Source: J088 sp003695505 [NCBI: Candidatus Dadabacteria bacterium]
GTDB lineage: Bacteria > J088
Reading direction: 5' to 3'
Assembly: GCA_003695505.1 (NCBI GenBank)
Contig: RFIY01000336.1
Span: forward strand, 1 to 5,087
DNA: 5,087 bases
The notes beneath the pieces were generated by a model that was not told where the DNA came from, ran no database searches, and was given only the letters and a program-made list of their open reading frames with translations. Shown here in pieces: positions 1-5,087 of the stretch (positions are counted from its first letter, which is position 1; every line of letters starts with the position of its first letter). The position numbers and the translations under genes are program-made.

Positions 1-318
1 CTGACGCCCGAACAGCATGAGCTTGGCCTTGAACTGGCCGAAACGCTGCTGATGGACATGGCGCCCGCAAAGCGCCGCAAGCTGACGCTGTTTTTTGTCG
101 TCATCAATATGCTGGCGCTGCTCCGCTTCGGGCGCACTACCACCAGCCTGCCGACTGAACAGCGCGCACGCTTGTGCCGCTTCCTGTTCGACAATCCCGT
201 TGGCCTGCTGCGCAAGGGCTTCTGGGGAGTCAACACGCTCGCTCGTCTGAGCGTCTACGGACAGCCCGAGCTGGCGCCGCATTTCGGCTACCTGATCCGC
301 GAGAATCCGGATGACTGA
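1..318 (+). CDS. Small helical protein, probable partner of the downstream GMC oxidoreductase (5' end missing)
   Basis: The reading frame is open from the first base of the window to a TGA at 316-318. The visible 105 residues are therefore the C-terminal part of a gene that starts to the left, and the internal ATG at 52 need not be the true start. The protein has no recognisable catalytic motif. It is mostly amphipathic helix, with a hydrophobic stretch near FFVVINMLALL and a C-terminal block around LARLSVYGQPELAPHFGY. That pattern resembles the small helical proteins encoded beside GMC flavoenzymes, such as the gluconate 2-dehydrogenase subunit 3 type, where a Tyr-Gly-x-Pro segment precedes a Gly-Tyr. 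The stop codon lies inside the next gene (8-bp overlap), which implies co-translation and supports a physical or functional partnership. The gene is clearly real. The family assignment is inference from weak similarity and context. Confidence 0.6.
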   Translation: MTPEQHELGLELAETLLMDMAPAKRRKLTLFFVVINMLALLRFGRTTTSLPTEQRARLCRFLFDNPVGLLRKGFWGVNTLARLSVYGQPELAPHFGYLIRENPDD

Positions 319-1813
319 GCATCACCTCGACTACGACGTCGTCATCATCGGCTCGGGCGCTGGCGGCGGCACGGTTGCCCGCGAGCTCGCCGACCTGGCC
401 GAGCAGGGGCTGCGCGTTGCGCTGCTCGACGCGGGCGGTCGCTTCCGCAAGCGCGACAATACGCGCCGTGAATTCGAAATGGCGCGCAAGTACTACGTCG
501 ACAATGGCGGCTTCCAGACTGCCAGCCAGGACATGACGCTGGCGTTTTGCGAAGCCGTCGGCGGCAGCACCAACGTCTACACCGGCGTCACCTTTCGTCC
601 ACCGGAACGGGTGTTGCAGAAATGGAATGTCCCAACGCTCGACCTGGATGATCTCGAGCCTCGCCTGGAAAAGTTCGAGCAGGAAAACAACGTCCACCTG
701 CAACCGCCCGAGAATATCAACCGCAACAATCAGCTCTTCCGCGAAGGCTGCGAGCGGCTCGGCTGGGAGATTGGACAGTTCCCATTGAATATCCGCGACT
801 GCGCCGGACTGAACACCTGCAATATCGGCTGTGCCCGCTTCGCCAAGCAGGGGACCGCCCAGGTACAGATCCCGTATGCCGAACAACGTGGCGTCGAAGT
901 CATTCCGTTCTGCCGCGTCGACCGGATTTCCCCGGGCCGGGTCGAAGCAAAGATCCGCGAACCGGAACACGGGCTGCCACCGGCGCACTACCCCGCCGGA
1001 GACTATATCATTACCGCACGCAAAATCGTTGTCGCCGCCGGCACGCTCGGCACGACACCACTGCTGATGCGTTCCTTCGGCAAGAAGGCCTGGCCAGAGC
1101 TGGGTCGCTGGTTTACCTGTCATCCGGCACTCACACTGGTCGCCGAACACGACGAGCAGGTCCTTGGCTCGCAAGGCCACCCGAAAAGCTATTACTGCGA
1201 TACGTTCGTGGAATCGGATCACTTCCTGCTGGAAACGTGCTTCTATTTTCCTTTCGTCACATCCAAGAATCTGGTCGGCTTCGGCCCGGAGGTTGACGAA
1301 CTGATGGGACGCATGGATCACCAGCAGCAGATCCTGGTCCTGGTGCTTGACAAGGCAAAACGCGAGAATCGCGTCACGATCGATCGTGCCGGGAATCCGG
1401 TCGTGCATTACGACATCGACGCTTCGATCCGCGACGCAATGATCGCGTCGATCCGCGCGGCCGGGCGGCTGTTCTTCGCATCTGGCGCCACGCGCGCCCA
1501 CCTGCCGGCAACCGGACGGTTTTTCACCTGGGCCAACGAAGTGGACCAGCTCGACGATCTCGTTCGCCCGGAACGGTTCCGCACCGGGCAGGTCGCGATC
1601 TCTGCGGCTCACCTGATGGGTGGATGCCGGATGGGTACCGACCCCGCCAGCTCGGTCACCGACCCGTGGGGGCGGCTGCATGGTCTCGACGGCATCTATG
1701 TAGCTGATGCCAGCCTGTTCCCCGACTCGGCGGAAGTCAATCCATACCTGACGATCATGGCGCTGGCCAGCCGCGTCGCCGATGCCATCCGAGAGGATCT
1801 CGGCGCAGCCTGA
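311..1813 (+). CDS. GMC-family FAD-dependent oxidoreductase
   Basis: This 500-residue protein is a complete glucose-methanol-choline (GMC) flavoenzyme, a family that oxidises alcohols or sugars using FAD. The N-terminal Rossmann dinucleotide motif is GSGAGG (residues 14-19) after a hydrophobic strand, with Asp40 at the usual ribose-binding acidic position. GGSTN (84-88) matches the second FAD-contacting motif of the family. Near the C-terminus, HLMGGCRMG supplies the presumed catalytic His434, and NPYLT supplies Asn477. Their spacing of 43 residues is typical of the His/Asn or His/His active-site pair. A cysteine-rich segment (Cys164, Cys170, Cys174, followed by AKQG) recalls long-chain alcohol oxidase/dehydrogenase-like members. 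No signal peptide or transmembrane segment is visible, so it is probably cytoplasmic. The start at 311 places the Rossmann strand about nine residues in, as usual. The substrate cannot be told from sequence. The overlapping upstream gene is the likely partner. Confidence 0.92.
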   Translation: MTEHHLDYDVVIIGSGAGGGTVARELADLAEQGLRVALLDAGGRFRKRDNTRREFEMARKYYVDNGGFQTASQDMTLAFCEAVGGSTNVYTGVTFRPPERVLQKWNVPTLDLDDLEPRLEKFEQENNVHLQPPENINRNNQLFREGCERLGWEIGQFPLNIRDCAGLNTCNIGCARFAKQGTAQVQIPYAEQRGVEVIPFCRVDRISPGRVEAKIREPEHGLPPAHYPAGDYIITARKIVVAAGTLGTTPLLMRSFGKKAWPELGRWFTCHPALTLVAEHDEQVLGSQGHPKSYYCDTFVESDHFLLETCFYFPFVTSKNLVGFGPEVDELMGRMDHQQQILVLVLDKAKRENRVTIDRAGNPVVHYDIDASIRDAMIASIRAAGRLFFASGATRAHLPATGRFFTWANEVDQLDDLVRPERFRTGQVAISAAHLMGGCRMGTDPASSVTDPWGRLHGLDGIYVADASLFPDSAEVNPYLTIMALASRVADAIREDLGAA

Positions 1814-2345: not shown

Positions 2346-4184
2346 ATGCAGTATGTGGAGCTTTTGATCCAGGGGGTCAGACGCTTCACGCAATCGCATC
2401 GATTGACGCTTGCCGGTAAACGCGTGTGGCTTGCCGGTGGACTCGACCGTGGACGCACGACGGTCGCGACGCTGTTACGCGCGGCATTCGATCCCGACTA
2501 CTTCGAGGCGGTGCGCGAGAGCCTGATCCCGTGGCAGCCGACCCAGGACGCCTCACGCTTCGCGCTGATCTTCCAGCACGACAACCAGACGTGGCGCATT
2601 GCCTGCGATGCCCGCAGCGGCGGAACCGTTCTGGCGGAGCGCCAGGGGGATCAATTCGTCCCCGTTGCGCAGGGTGGCTTCGATGTCCTCGATGCCTGCA
2701 CGGATCGCTTCGACTTTCCGGCGCCGGGCGACTGGGCGCAGTTGTACTTCTGGACGGATGCGGCCGCGCCGCTGATCGCCGCGGAAGACGATCTCGGACT
2801 GAATACCGATATCGATCCGGAACAGCTCCAGGAGCGCCTGATGGAGCTCCAGACCGAACGTCAGTTGCTTGATGGCATGGGCAACGCCCAGTTTCAACTC
2901 GACGACCTCGAAAACGAGCTCTGGTCCCTCGAGGAAGAAGAAAAGCGCATCGAAGCCATCTTCGCCGAACTCCAAAATGTTGAAGCAGAAATCGAAAAGA
3001 CAGCCGCGCTCGAGAACCTCGATGACAATCTGATTCGCCGCGCAAAGGAGCAGTCGCGGATCGAACGGCAGGAGGAGGAGCAGCGCATCACGCTGGAGCA
3101 GGCCGTGGACGCGGCAAAAGAGGCGCTGGCCGCCGCCGAAGCACGTCCCATGTGGCACCACGACAAACTCTTTCTCGGGATCGCCGGCGGCACCCTCGCC
3201 GGATTCGTCGTCCCGGTCGTGCTCAAGATCTATCCGCTCAGTCTGGTCGGCTTTGCCGGCGCGCTCGGCGGCATTCCCTGGATTCTGCTGCAGTACCGCA
3301 AACACGAACAACATGTCGAACAGCTCAGACAAGGACTCAGCGATGCCGAGTCCGCACTCGAAACGTTCAGCTCAACGTGTGAACGTGAGCGTCGTGAGCT
3401 CGATGAGCTGGTTGGCAGTCTTGGCATTCTAGACGCCAAAGAGATCCCGAAGCGCGTCGAGGCCCGCAGCGGACTGCTGCGCAAGCGCGACGAGCTCAGG
3501 CAGCGCATTGCCGATGAAGGACTGTCCGAGAAGCGCGAAACCATCCGGCAGCAGGCCGAGACGTTGCGCAGTCGGGTCGAACGACTGAACGCGCAACTGC
3601 AGGACGCCGGCACCGGCCAGCGCGACGTCACGCAGATCGATGCGGAAATCGCGCAGATTGAGCGGGCACTGGCGGGTAAGCCCTCCGGTGGCGCCTCCGC
3701 CGCCGTGGCCGCGACAGGGGCGTCACCAGCGCAGACTCCGGAAGCCCGGATCGCCGCGATGCTGACGTCTGCGGCGAACATCGCAAGGCGCGAGTCCACC
3801 GATCTTGCCGGCGTCGTCAATCCGATCCTGACGAAAGTCGTCAACGCCGTCTTCGAGAATCGCTTTCGATCCGTCGAACTGGCTCCCGACGGCACAGCAA
3901 CCTGGATTCCGGCCTCAGGCGTCGAGCCGCTTCCGGAGCGCGCAATCGACCGCAGCCTCGCGCTCGTCACGGCGGCAGCCGCACAGATCGTTCTTGCGAA
4001 GGCGTGCGCGCAGGTACGGAGCTTTCCGCTCGTCTGGGACGAACCGTTTTCGGATCTCGACGACGCACTCCTGTCTCGACTCGGCCAGGTCAGCCATCGG
4101 GCGCTTGGCGACCTGCAACTGATCGCGCTCTCGGGCCGCAAGGCGTTGGGCAGCGCGCTGGGTCCGGCGCAACAATTGCCATGA
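2346..4184 (+). CDS. Rad50/SMC/YhaN-like coiled-coil ATPase with central hydrophobic hairpin and altered nucleotide-binding motifs
   Basis: This 612-residue protein has the split-head layout of the SMC/Rad50/YhaN group. An N-terminal lobe has a P-loop-like GGLDRGRTT (residues 31-39) followed by a beta-rich segment. A long coiled coil (about 159-266) comes next, then two hydrophobic segments (about 275-293 and 298-316) turning at a Tyr-Pro. A second coiled coil (about 317-441), a Gly/Ala/Pro/Thr-rich linker (about 445-468) and a C-terminal lobe complete it. The C-terminal lobe holds a clear Walker B and D-loop, LVWDEPFSDLDD, with Asp565 and Glu566. A membrane-like hairpin at the coil apex also occurs in YhaN-type proteins (COG4717). 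Oddities are that the Walker A lysine is Arg37, no LSGGQ-type signature is visible near 529-553, and the switch histidine is missing (LSGRK at 595-599). It sits 6 bp after rplS and overlaps rnhB by 4 bp. Architecture is confident. Function, membrane attachment and ATPase activity are not established. Confidence 0.8.
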   Translation: MQYVELLIQGVRRFTQSHRLTLAGKRVWLAGGLDRGRTTVATLLRAAFDPDYFEAVRESLIPWQPTQDASRFALIFQHDNQTWRIACDARSGGTVLAERQGDQFVPVAQGGFDVLDACTDRFDFPAPGDWAQLYFWTDAAAPLIAAEDDLGLNTDIDPEQLQERLMELQTERQLLDGMGNAQFQLDDLENELWSLEEEEKRIEAIFAELQNVEAEIEKTAALENLDDNLIRRAKEQSRIERQEEEQRITLEQAVDAAKEALAAAEARPMWHHDKLFLGIAGGTLAGFVVPVVLKIYPLSLVGFAGALGGIPWILLQYRKHEQHVEQLRQGLSDAESALETFSSTCERERRELDELVGSLGILDAKEIPKRVEARSGLLRKRDELRQRIADEGLSEKRETIRQQAETLRSRVERLNAQLQDAGTGQRDVTQIDAEIAQIERALAGKPSGGASAAVAATGASPAQTPEARIAAMLTSAANIARRESTDLAGVVNPILTKVVNAVFENRFRSVELAPDGTATWIPASGVEPLPERAIDRSLALVTAAAAQIVLAKACAQVRSFPLVWDEPFSDLDDALLSRLGQVSHRALGDLQLIALSGRKALGSALGPAQQLP

Positions 4185-4762
4185 ATATCGACCCGCGGTG
4201 GGCTGGTACCGATGAGGTCGGGCGCGGCTGCCTGGCCGGCCCTGTCGTTGCCGCCGCCGTCGTCTTTCGACGCGAACCGAACGATATCGCGCAGTACCGC
4301 GATTCCAAGAAATTGTCGGCGGCGCGGCGCCAACAAATCGCCGCATCGATCGTGCGCAACGAGCAGATCGAATGGGCCATCGCCTGGCGCGACCCCGAAG
4401 CCATCGACGCAACGAACATCCTGCGCGCGAGCCTCGCGGCAATGGCGGACGCCGTCGCACGGCTTTCACCGCCACCGGACGGCGTCTATGTCGACGGGCA
4501 TCAGATGATCCCAACGTCGCTGCCGCAACAGACTGTGATTGGCGGCGACGACCGCGTACCGCAAATTGCGGCAGCCAGCATTCTCGCGAAGGTATTCCGC
4601 GACCGCTGGATGGCCGCGCTCGCCAGCACCTGCCCGGGCTACGGCTGGGAGCGCAACGCGGGCTACGGAACGCCGGAGCACATGGAGGCGCTGGCGAGAC
4701 TTGGTCCGACCCCGCACCATCGCAAGAGTTTTGCCCCCGTACGCCAGATGAGGTTGTTCTGA
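4181..4762 (+). CDS. rnhB: Ribonuclease HII
   Basis: The 193-residue product is RNase HII, which cuts the RNA strand of RNA-DNA hybrids and incises at single ribonucleotides embedded in DNA, acting in the cytoplasm with Mg2+ or Mn2+. The N-terminal GTDEVGRGCLAGPVV gives catalytic Asp11 and Glu12 and the substrate-reading Gly14-Arg15-Gly16. YVDG supplies Asp105, and GDDRVPQIAAASILAKVFRD supplies Asp123 and the conserved helix. The C-terminal GYGT (Tyr162) and HHRKSFAPVR are also family hallmarks. Length is typical and all key residues are present. I chose the ATG at 4181 because it puts the DEVGRG motif about ten residues in and overlaps the ATPase stop as ATGA. The frame extends further upstream, but that part lies within the ATPase gene and has no RNase HII similarity. 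No good Shine-Dalgarno is visible, consistent with translational coupling. Confidence 0.97.
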   Translation: MNIDPRWAGTDEVGRGCLAGPVVAAAVVFRREPNDIAQYRDSKKLSAARRQQIAASIVRNEQIEWAIAWRDPEAIDATNILRASLAAMADAVARLSPPPDGVYVDGHQMIPTSLPQQTVIGGDDRVPQIAAASILAKVFRDRWMAALASTCPGYGWERNAGYGTPEHMEALARLGPTPHHRKSFAPVRQMRLF

Positions 4763-5087
4763 TGCCTTCTGATCGACAGAAATCCGGCTCGGTCGCCGAA
4801 CAGCGCGCAGCAGACTTCCTGAAGAACCTTGGTTTCCAGATCGTCCGGCGCAATTACCGGTCGCGTTTCGGCGAAATCGACCTGATTGCCGTCCGGCGCG
4901 ACCTGATGTGTTTCGTCGAAGTCAAGGCACGCAGCGATGGCCGTTTCGGCAGTGGCGCGGAAGCGGTGACCCGCGACAAACAGCGAAAGTTGATCCGAAC
5001 CGCGCAGATGTACATCACACTGGAACGCAAACATCGCTTTCGCACCCGTTTCGATGTCATCGAGGTCGATCTTTCGGACGATGCGGC
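4762..5087 (+). CDS. yraN: YraN/UPF0102 family nuclease-fold protein (3' end missing)
   Basis: This frame begins at an ATG overlapping the rnhB stop by one base (TGATG) and stays open to the window edge, giving 108 residues with no stop. It matches the UPF0102/YraN family, which is usually about 115-130 residues, so little is missing. Visible landmarks are the N-terminal helix GSVAEQRAADFL with Glu13, then RNYRSRFGEIDLI with Glu38 and Asp40, then FVEVKAR with Glu53 and Lys55, then FGSGAEAV, and finally RFDVIEVD. The Asp...Glu-x-Lys set is the core of a PD-(D/E)XK (Holliday-junction-resolvase-like) nuclease fold. The family's cellular substrate is not firmly established. Adjacency to rnhB is a common arrangement and fits a role in nucleic-acid maintenance. 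Family identity is secure, while activity is inference. Confidence 0.93.
   Translation, partial: MPSDRQKSGSVAEQRAADFLKNLGFQIVRRNYRSRFGEIDLIAVRRDLMCFVEVKARSDGRFGSGAEAVTRDKQRKLIRTAQMYITLERKHRFRTRFDVIEVDLSDDA

Follow-up and report, generated by a model that had tools for sequence, protein, structure and literature searches.

In the window, i.e. the whole stretch of 5,087 nucleotides that was analyzed, the gene behind rplS belongs to an uncurated, rplS-linked protein family with a predicted Rad50/SMC-type head, a coiled coil and a predicted membrane hairpin at the hinge position. We refer to it as family X. It probably represents a membrane-anchored branch of the Rad50/SMC/YhaN-like proteins, and the window copy itself is most likely a membrane-tethered pseudo-ATPase acting as a clamp or scaffold. 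More tentatively, family X could be a widespread protein of the Rad50 type, anchored in the membrane and co-expressed with L19, in which an ATPase has turned into a conserved pseudo-ATPase scaffold on several independent occasions, and the window copy, with its Arg P-loop, missing signature and intact Walker B motif, might have been caught in the middle of such a conversion.

The coordinates of the locus are listed in the table. The open reading frame of X begins with an ATG six bases past the stop codon of rplS; position 2436, given as the start of the gene by an earlier reading of the letters (hereafter the sequence-only reading), is codon 31 of this frame. The GC content by codon position (0.718/0.447/0.742) is similar to that of the neighboring genes, and rnhB and yraN overlap by one base. 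Upstream of rplS the window has a gene for a GMC oxidoreductase, in contrast to trmD/rimM at most loci of the relatives, but the order rplS-X-rnhB-yraN is retained. A search with the window protein found a single copy of X in its own genome.

Table. Features of the X locus in the window. Positions are those of the window, residues those of X.
Feature	Position	Strand	Basis or remark
Partial ORF	1-318		upstream of the GMC oxidoreductase gene
GMC oxidoreductase gene	311-1813		precedes rplS
rplS, ribosomal protein L19	1956-2339	+	PF01245, E 1.7e-46; usual upstream neighbor of family X
Gene X (612 aa) for a predicted Rad50/SMC-like protein anchored in the membrane, P-loop degenerate	2346-4184	+	ORF, relatives, Rad50-like model fold
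X head N-lobe, residues 1-157	2346-2816	+	AF2 strands and helices; Rad50 alignment
X P-loop slot GGLDRGRTT, residues 31-39	2436-2462	+	
X codon 37, CGC (Arg where Walker A has Lys)	2454-2456	+	
X first coiled-coil arm, residues 158-264	2817-3137	+	AF2 helices
X predicted membrane hairpin, about residues 273-315, at the place of the SMC hinge/Rad50 hook	3162-3290	+	hydropathy
X second coiled-coil arm, residues 316-443	3291-3674	+	AF2 helices
X head C-lobe, residues 465-612	3738-4181	+	AF2 model, Rad50 alignment, profile against the Rad50 C-lobe
X ABC signature slot LPERAIDRSL, residues 529-538	3930-3959	+	L008 and L014 read LSEGD here
X Walker B and D-loop DEPFSDLDD, residues 565-573	4038-4064	+	
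X switch slot LSGRK, residues 595-599, without His	4128-4142	+	nearest relative L008 reads FSGRE
rnhB, RNase HII	4181-4762	+	PF01351, E 8e-40; ATG overlaps the X stop codon (ATGA)
yraN (UPF0102)	4762-5085	+	PF02021, E 8.7e-30; start overlaps the rnhB stop codon; runs off the window

Taken alone, window X gave no relevant significant match in sequence searches of Pfam, NCBIfam and the PDB. No Pfam family was reached at E 0.001, and AAA_27, AAA_23 and SMC_N were not reached even at E 1. A scan of genome contigs with this single protein gave no relatives. In 98 bacterial genomes, a search at the protein level revealed five relatives besides the window genome, each adjoining trmD and rplS. With a family profile, 15 of 386 genomes from a broad draw, including that of the window, yielded members at E<=1e-90, and in five small phyla the genomes carrying X amounted to 2/2, 2/2, 3/3, 1/1 and 2/5. 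Among the Myxococcota, 140 of 146 genomes match at E<=1e-3 and 117 of 146 at E<=1e-30 (counted by hand), some of the matches at the weaker threshold being other SMC-like proteins. A profile search of 385 genomes drawn around G432 added no members beyond the known ones. Window X matches the profile over its full length (positions 1-643 of 644, E 1.1e-159), partly by construction, as it is itself a row of the profile; independent of the profile, blastp aligns its residues 1-604 with the relative L014 at E 1.4e-42. The closest relative found is 24% identical to window X. Some relatives with intact P-loops pass Pfam cut-offs, namely for AAA_23 (L009, L011, L012), SMC_N (L008, L011) and AAA_27 (L012). 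Among the members scanned only such generic SMC, AAA or Rad50 models were found and no family-specific Pfam or NCBIfam model, which agrees with the suspicion of the sequence-only reading that the gene belongs to something undescribed. Excerpts of openly licensed PMC articles on YhaN, the rplS/trmD/rnhB neighborhood, M. xanthus rplS, Walker A changes and COG4717 contained nothing on family X.

The neighbors considered were ffh, rimM, trmD, an RNA methyltransferase, rplS, rnhB, yraN, rsmI and the GMC oxidoreductase. At 116 of 123 loci the gene immediately before X, in the same orientation, is rplS; at the remaining loci either the contig ends too soon (three cases) or rplS was not found (L055, L060, L062, L067). 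Leaving the window genome aside, six groups of phylum rank have X next to rplS; the listed kinship of the window genome to these groups goes no closer than the domain. This linkage suggests housekeeping co-expression rather than a defence or mobile system. Downstream, a stretch of 2.5 kb contains yraN or rnhB at 81 and yraN at 77 of 123 loci, many loci reaching only 1.5 kb. YraN was considered as a dedicated partner of X, which is unsupported given 81 loci for yraN/rnhB against 116 for rplS.

The AF2 model of window X has a mean pLDDT of 74.7. Foldseek ranks chains of Rad50, JetC and SMC first for this model, with low TM-scores (0.24 for the first). Superposition on Rad50 (3tho_A) gave a Z-score of 14.4 and 5.9 A over 259 residues, a moderate value near the level which helical models can reach by common arrangement alone. 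The relative from Myxococcus xanthus (L145), a protein without GK[ST], was modeled with a mean pLDDT of 83.6 and superimposes on Rad50 (3qf7_A) with a Z-score of 26.4 and 2.9 A over 277 residues. As the window model is weak in its P-loop confidence, TM-scores and Z-score, the fold argument rests on the M. xanthus model. Searched with a family profile of 20 rows, the PDB gives Rad50 chains at E 7.4e-23. By these models and profiles, window X and L145 are both predicted to have a Rad50-type head fold, a likeness that says nothing about function. The hairpin is predicted from hydropathy, with a peak of 2.2 at residues 274-296 of window X; it is not mentioned in the sequence-only reading. A hydrophobic stretch in the middle of the protein was found in 115 of 120 long family members. 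It is also present in all five outgroups of the tree described below, and among eight non-family SMC-like proteins L124 alone lacks it.

Family X can be compared with several known systems. Similar to Rad50/SbcC, it shows the head fold of the models and the profile similarity. It differs by the predicted membrane hairpin, which occupies the position of the zinc hook of Rad50, and by the lack of LSGGQ. Subunits of SMC, JetC and the SMC-like Lamassu LmuACB type appear as Foldseek matches of the X head, but X is located in a housekeeping locus. The comparison proteins of the Pfam AAA_27/AAA_23 type, known as YhaN and COG4717, share the N- and C-terminal Rad50-type lobes, the coiled coil and the hydrophobic stretch, and all five outgroups pass the AAA_27 cut-off. 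Their C-lobe layout matches as well, and the Walker B motif reads DD in three of five outgroups, as in 13 of the 20 members of X with GK[ST]. In contrast to them, X forms a clade of its own (100/100) behind rplS, carries LSxG in only 2 of 123 proteins and has lost the P-loop in most sampled members. Loss of catalytic residues with retention of the fold is also known from degenerate nucleotide-binding sites of ABC proteins; such sites in type I ABC exporters are the subject of PMC7756269. In X, however, the degeneracy concerns a predicted membrane protein of the Rad50 type and recurs across phyla. X is a real, conserved and uncurated family related to Rad50 and YhaN, which has repeatedly been converted to what is likely a pseudo-ATPase.

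Measured against the Rad50/SMC superfamily, window X has G-x4-G-R-T where GxxxxGK[ST] is expected, lacks both an LSGGQ-like signature and the switch histidine, and carries the Walker B acidic pair (D565-E566). The sequence-only reading had reported the P-loop slot with Arg37 encoded by CGC, the missing signature and a strong Walker B and D-loop, all of which the sequence bears out. It had also listed Asp34 as an alteration, but this residue is ordinary, since among the 20 relatives with GK[ST] the residue is G in 13 and E in 7, and the outgroup L122 has Asp (GDNDTGKST). The lack of the signature, in contrast, is a genuine difference, as the two nearest relatives, L008 and L014, which occupy the same slot between rplS and rnhB and have a GKT P-loop, read LSEGD. 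No aligned signature slot seen contains a literal LSGGQ, and the LSxG form occurs only in these two of 123 distinct proteins. Compared with its nearest relatives, the window lineage has thus lost Lys37 and the LSxG signature, as judged from the alignment.

For the switch histidine the sequence-only reading was correct about its absence but not about its peculiarity, since a histidine is missing from this slot in all 20 relatives with GK[ST] (19 by script, L118 by eye). Histidine was found in this slot in 47 of 96 mapped relatives without the P-loop and in the outgroups L121 and L125. The P-loop-less copies with histidine include L010, L019-L029 and other Myxococcaceae, and all 12 examples listed read H-V-T-x-H. 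A simple account in which all catalytic motifs drift away does not predict this histidine, which slightly lowers the confidence in our preferred explanation. The Walker B motif is a second point against a pseudo-ATPase, because its pristine state would fit a nucleotide site that is still used. Of the 20 relatives with GK[ST], 13 have D as the second letter of this motif, two have E and five another residue, so the Glu of the window (4041-4043) is exceptional; the two relatives sharing it are L115 and L117. Gln591 (4116-4118 in the window), with which the last core strand begins, is invariant: all 118 long members that have a residue in this column carry Gln, whatever the state of the P-loop.

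Arg37 cannot stem from one sequencing error, as neither lysine codon (AAA, AAG) agrees with CGC at any position. A sequencing or binning error in one contig is accordingly hardly credible, although the assembly is a draft of 395 contigs (84.5% complete), and the remaining frame and the operon are intact. SMC_N has eight matches in this genome, and a GK[ST] P-loop is present at or near every one of them, which argues against a general drift from Lys to Arg in P-loops here; one SMC-type gene accounts for two of the eight with its two halves, the P-loop found at the second half (L173) being in a different frame. A substitute lysine within the P-loop was considered as well. K25 is the sole lysine in residues 1-199 of window X and an unlikely candidate, sitting in the model before the strand that leads into the loop. 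The AF2 model is too uncertain at residues 33-35 (pLDDT below 50) to place Arg37.

The sequence-only reading had also raised an ATPase that uses Arg in the P-loop. An active enzyme of this kind, with a new catalytic solution and a strong Walker B motif, appears very improbable. The DE of its Walker B motif, rare among the relatives with GK[ST], could be compensatory. However, Lys occupies position 37 in the nearest relatives, which makes Arg37 specific for the window lineage and leaves a subfamily with an Arg P-loop unsupported, and the signature is gone from the window copy though these relatives retain LSEGD. The other column-37 arginines among those listed (L186, L188, L189) stand in slots without the form GxxxxG[KR][ST].

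Across the family, GK[ST] is kept in only 20 of 123 distinct proteins of a sample rich in Myxococcaceae; 102 have an N-terminus without GK[ST], mostly from Myxococcota, and one lacks the N-terminus. Within the Myxococcota, the only members among the 20 intact proteins belong to the myxobacterial family with the code f101, where nine of nine sampled members keep the motif. For the phylogeny 48 rows were used and the motif columns were left out. Family X is separated from the outgroups as a clade with 100/100 support, and the window groups with L008 and L014 at 99/97, its placement being uncertain to the extent that end branches are long (1.68 for the window). A single origin of all losses was considered, but a tree with the 29 rows without GK[ST] as one clade was rejected (AU test, p 4.4e-5; branches are long). 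Parsimony gives four changes of the P-loop state, which makes several losses probable, a regain being unlikely. Within the limits of the tree, these results show that the P-loop was lost separately in the window lineage, in the Myxococcota and in the phylum of G323. Homologues in the same slot with normal motifs, named by the sequence-only reading as evidence for an isolated mutant, do exist for the P-loop (GKT or GKS in L008, L014, L009, L012, L118, L119 and others), but the literal LSGGQ occurs in none of them, the two nearest carrying LSEGD. The window copy does not appear as an isolated mutant, since the loss recurred on other branches and the gene was kept.

Selection on copies without the P-loop was analyzed at 16 loci of Myxococcaceae. 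The dN/dS values range from 0.11 to 0.57 in the 15 pairs with the lowest dS, and for pairs with dS under 1.5 the median amounts to 0.45, which indicates purifying, though not strong, selection. The former P-loop slot has a mean identity of 73.5% compared to 68.6% for the whole protein. Together with the model of L145, these values indicate that the Myxococcaceae have conserved the protein in its form lacking GK[ST], with a head predicted to be of the Rad50 type, and that it is not debris. We infer the same retention for the window copy. Slow gene decay in the window lineage, where an ancestral ATPase is no longer needed and the frame has stayed open by chance, is improbable. It would be in line with the long end branch, with the loss of both Lys37 and LSxG against the nearest relatives and with the origin from one draft genome for which no close relatives were found. 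On the other hand, a frame of 612 codons is open with a codon-position GC like that of the neighbors, the spacing to rplS and the overlap with rnhB are tight, hairpin, Walker B motif and C-lobe are retained, and the P-loop-less relatives in the Myxococcaceae are under purifying selection. The view of the sequence-only reading that a coiled-coil protein of the SMC/Rad50 type with a degenerate ATPase is encoded in an operon and is probably no simple case of decay is supported by these findings.

For the tethered pseudo-ATPase which we favor, the following picture can be drawn. The polypeptide is predicted to fold back at a two-helix membrane hairpin, so that the N- and C-lobes would come together in a head of the Rad50 type, which the coiled-coil stalk keeps at a distance from the membrane. 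The ancestral head presumably had a normal P-loop, as suggested by intact relatives on several branches and by the outgroups. In the window lineage, as the comparison shows, Lys37 has been replaced by Arg, and the LSxG motif that L008 and L014 retain has disappeared. The protein most likely works without ATP turnover, as a tethered head dimer or scaffold, and would at most bind nucleotide without hydrolyzing it. Its cargo may be DNA, ribosomes or another protein.

A nucleotide switch without hydrolysis, in which Arg37 and the intact Walker B motif bind ATP and lock the heads together without turnover, seems rather unlikely to us. In its favor, the DEPFSDLDD motif and the spacing G-x4-G-[KR]-T are retained. 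However, window X lacks the signature and the switch histidine, both of which contact ATP in ABC proteins, and relatives without a recognizable P-loop are retained regardless. According to PMC6254361, Walker A exchanges of K to R in related ATPases often, but not always, permit ATP binding without hydrolysis; in Msh2-Msh6 the exchange impairs binding.

Rad50 and SMC proteins are usually viewed as ATP-driven machines. In family X, by contrast, the heads appear to drop the ATP site repeatedly and to retain the fold, the stalk, the hairpin and the place behind rplS. The family can therefore be regarded as a natural test of what Rad50/SMC heads do without ATP. Since it occurs in the genetically tractable M. 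xanthus (L145), this can be tested directly.

Some minor observations were made on individual records. YraN of the window (4762-5085) also matches nuclease-type models of NERD, Mrr and Hjc. At the locus L009, trmD (2758-3531) is interrupted by one in-frame TAA. The phylum with 146 genomes was recognized as Myxococcota by 19 X proteins that have an identical counterpart at a named locus; among them, the X proteins of L010 (G028) and L137 (Citreicoccus inhibens) are identical. The record L135 (BNCN01000016.1), labeled Comamonas sp. KCTC 72670, contains a myxobacterial X locus whose protein is identical to that of L040, and it is probably a mislabeled or contaminated genome.
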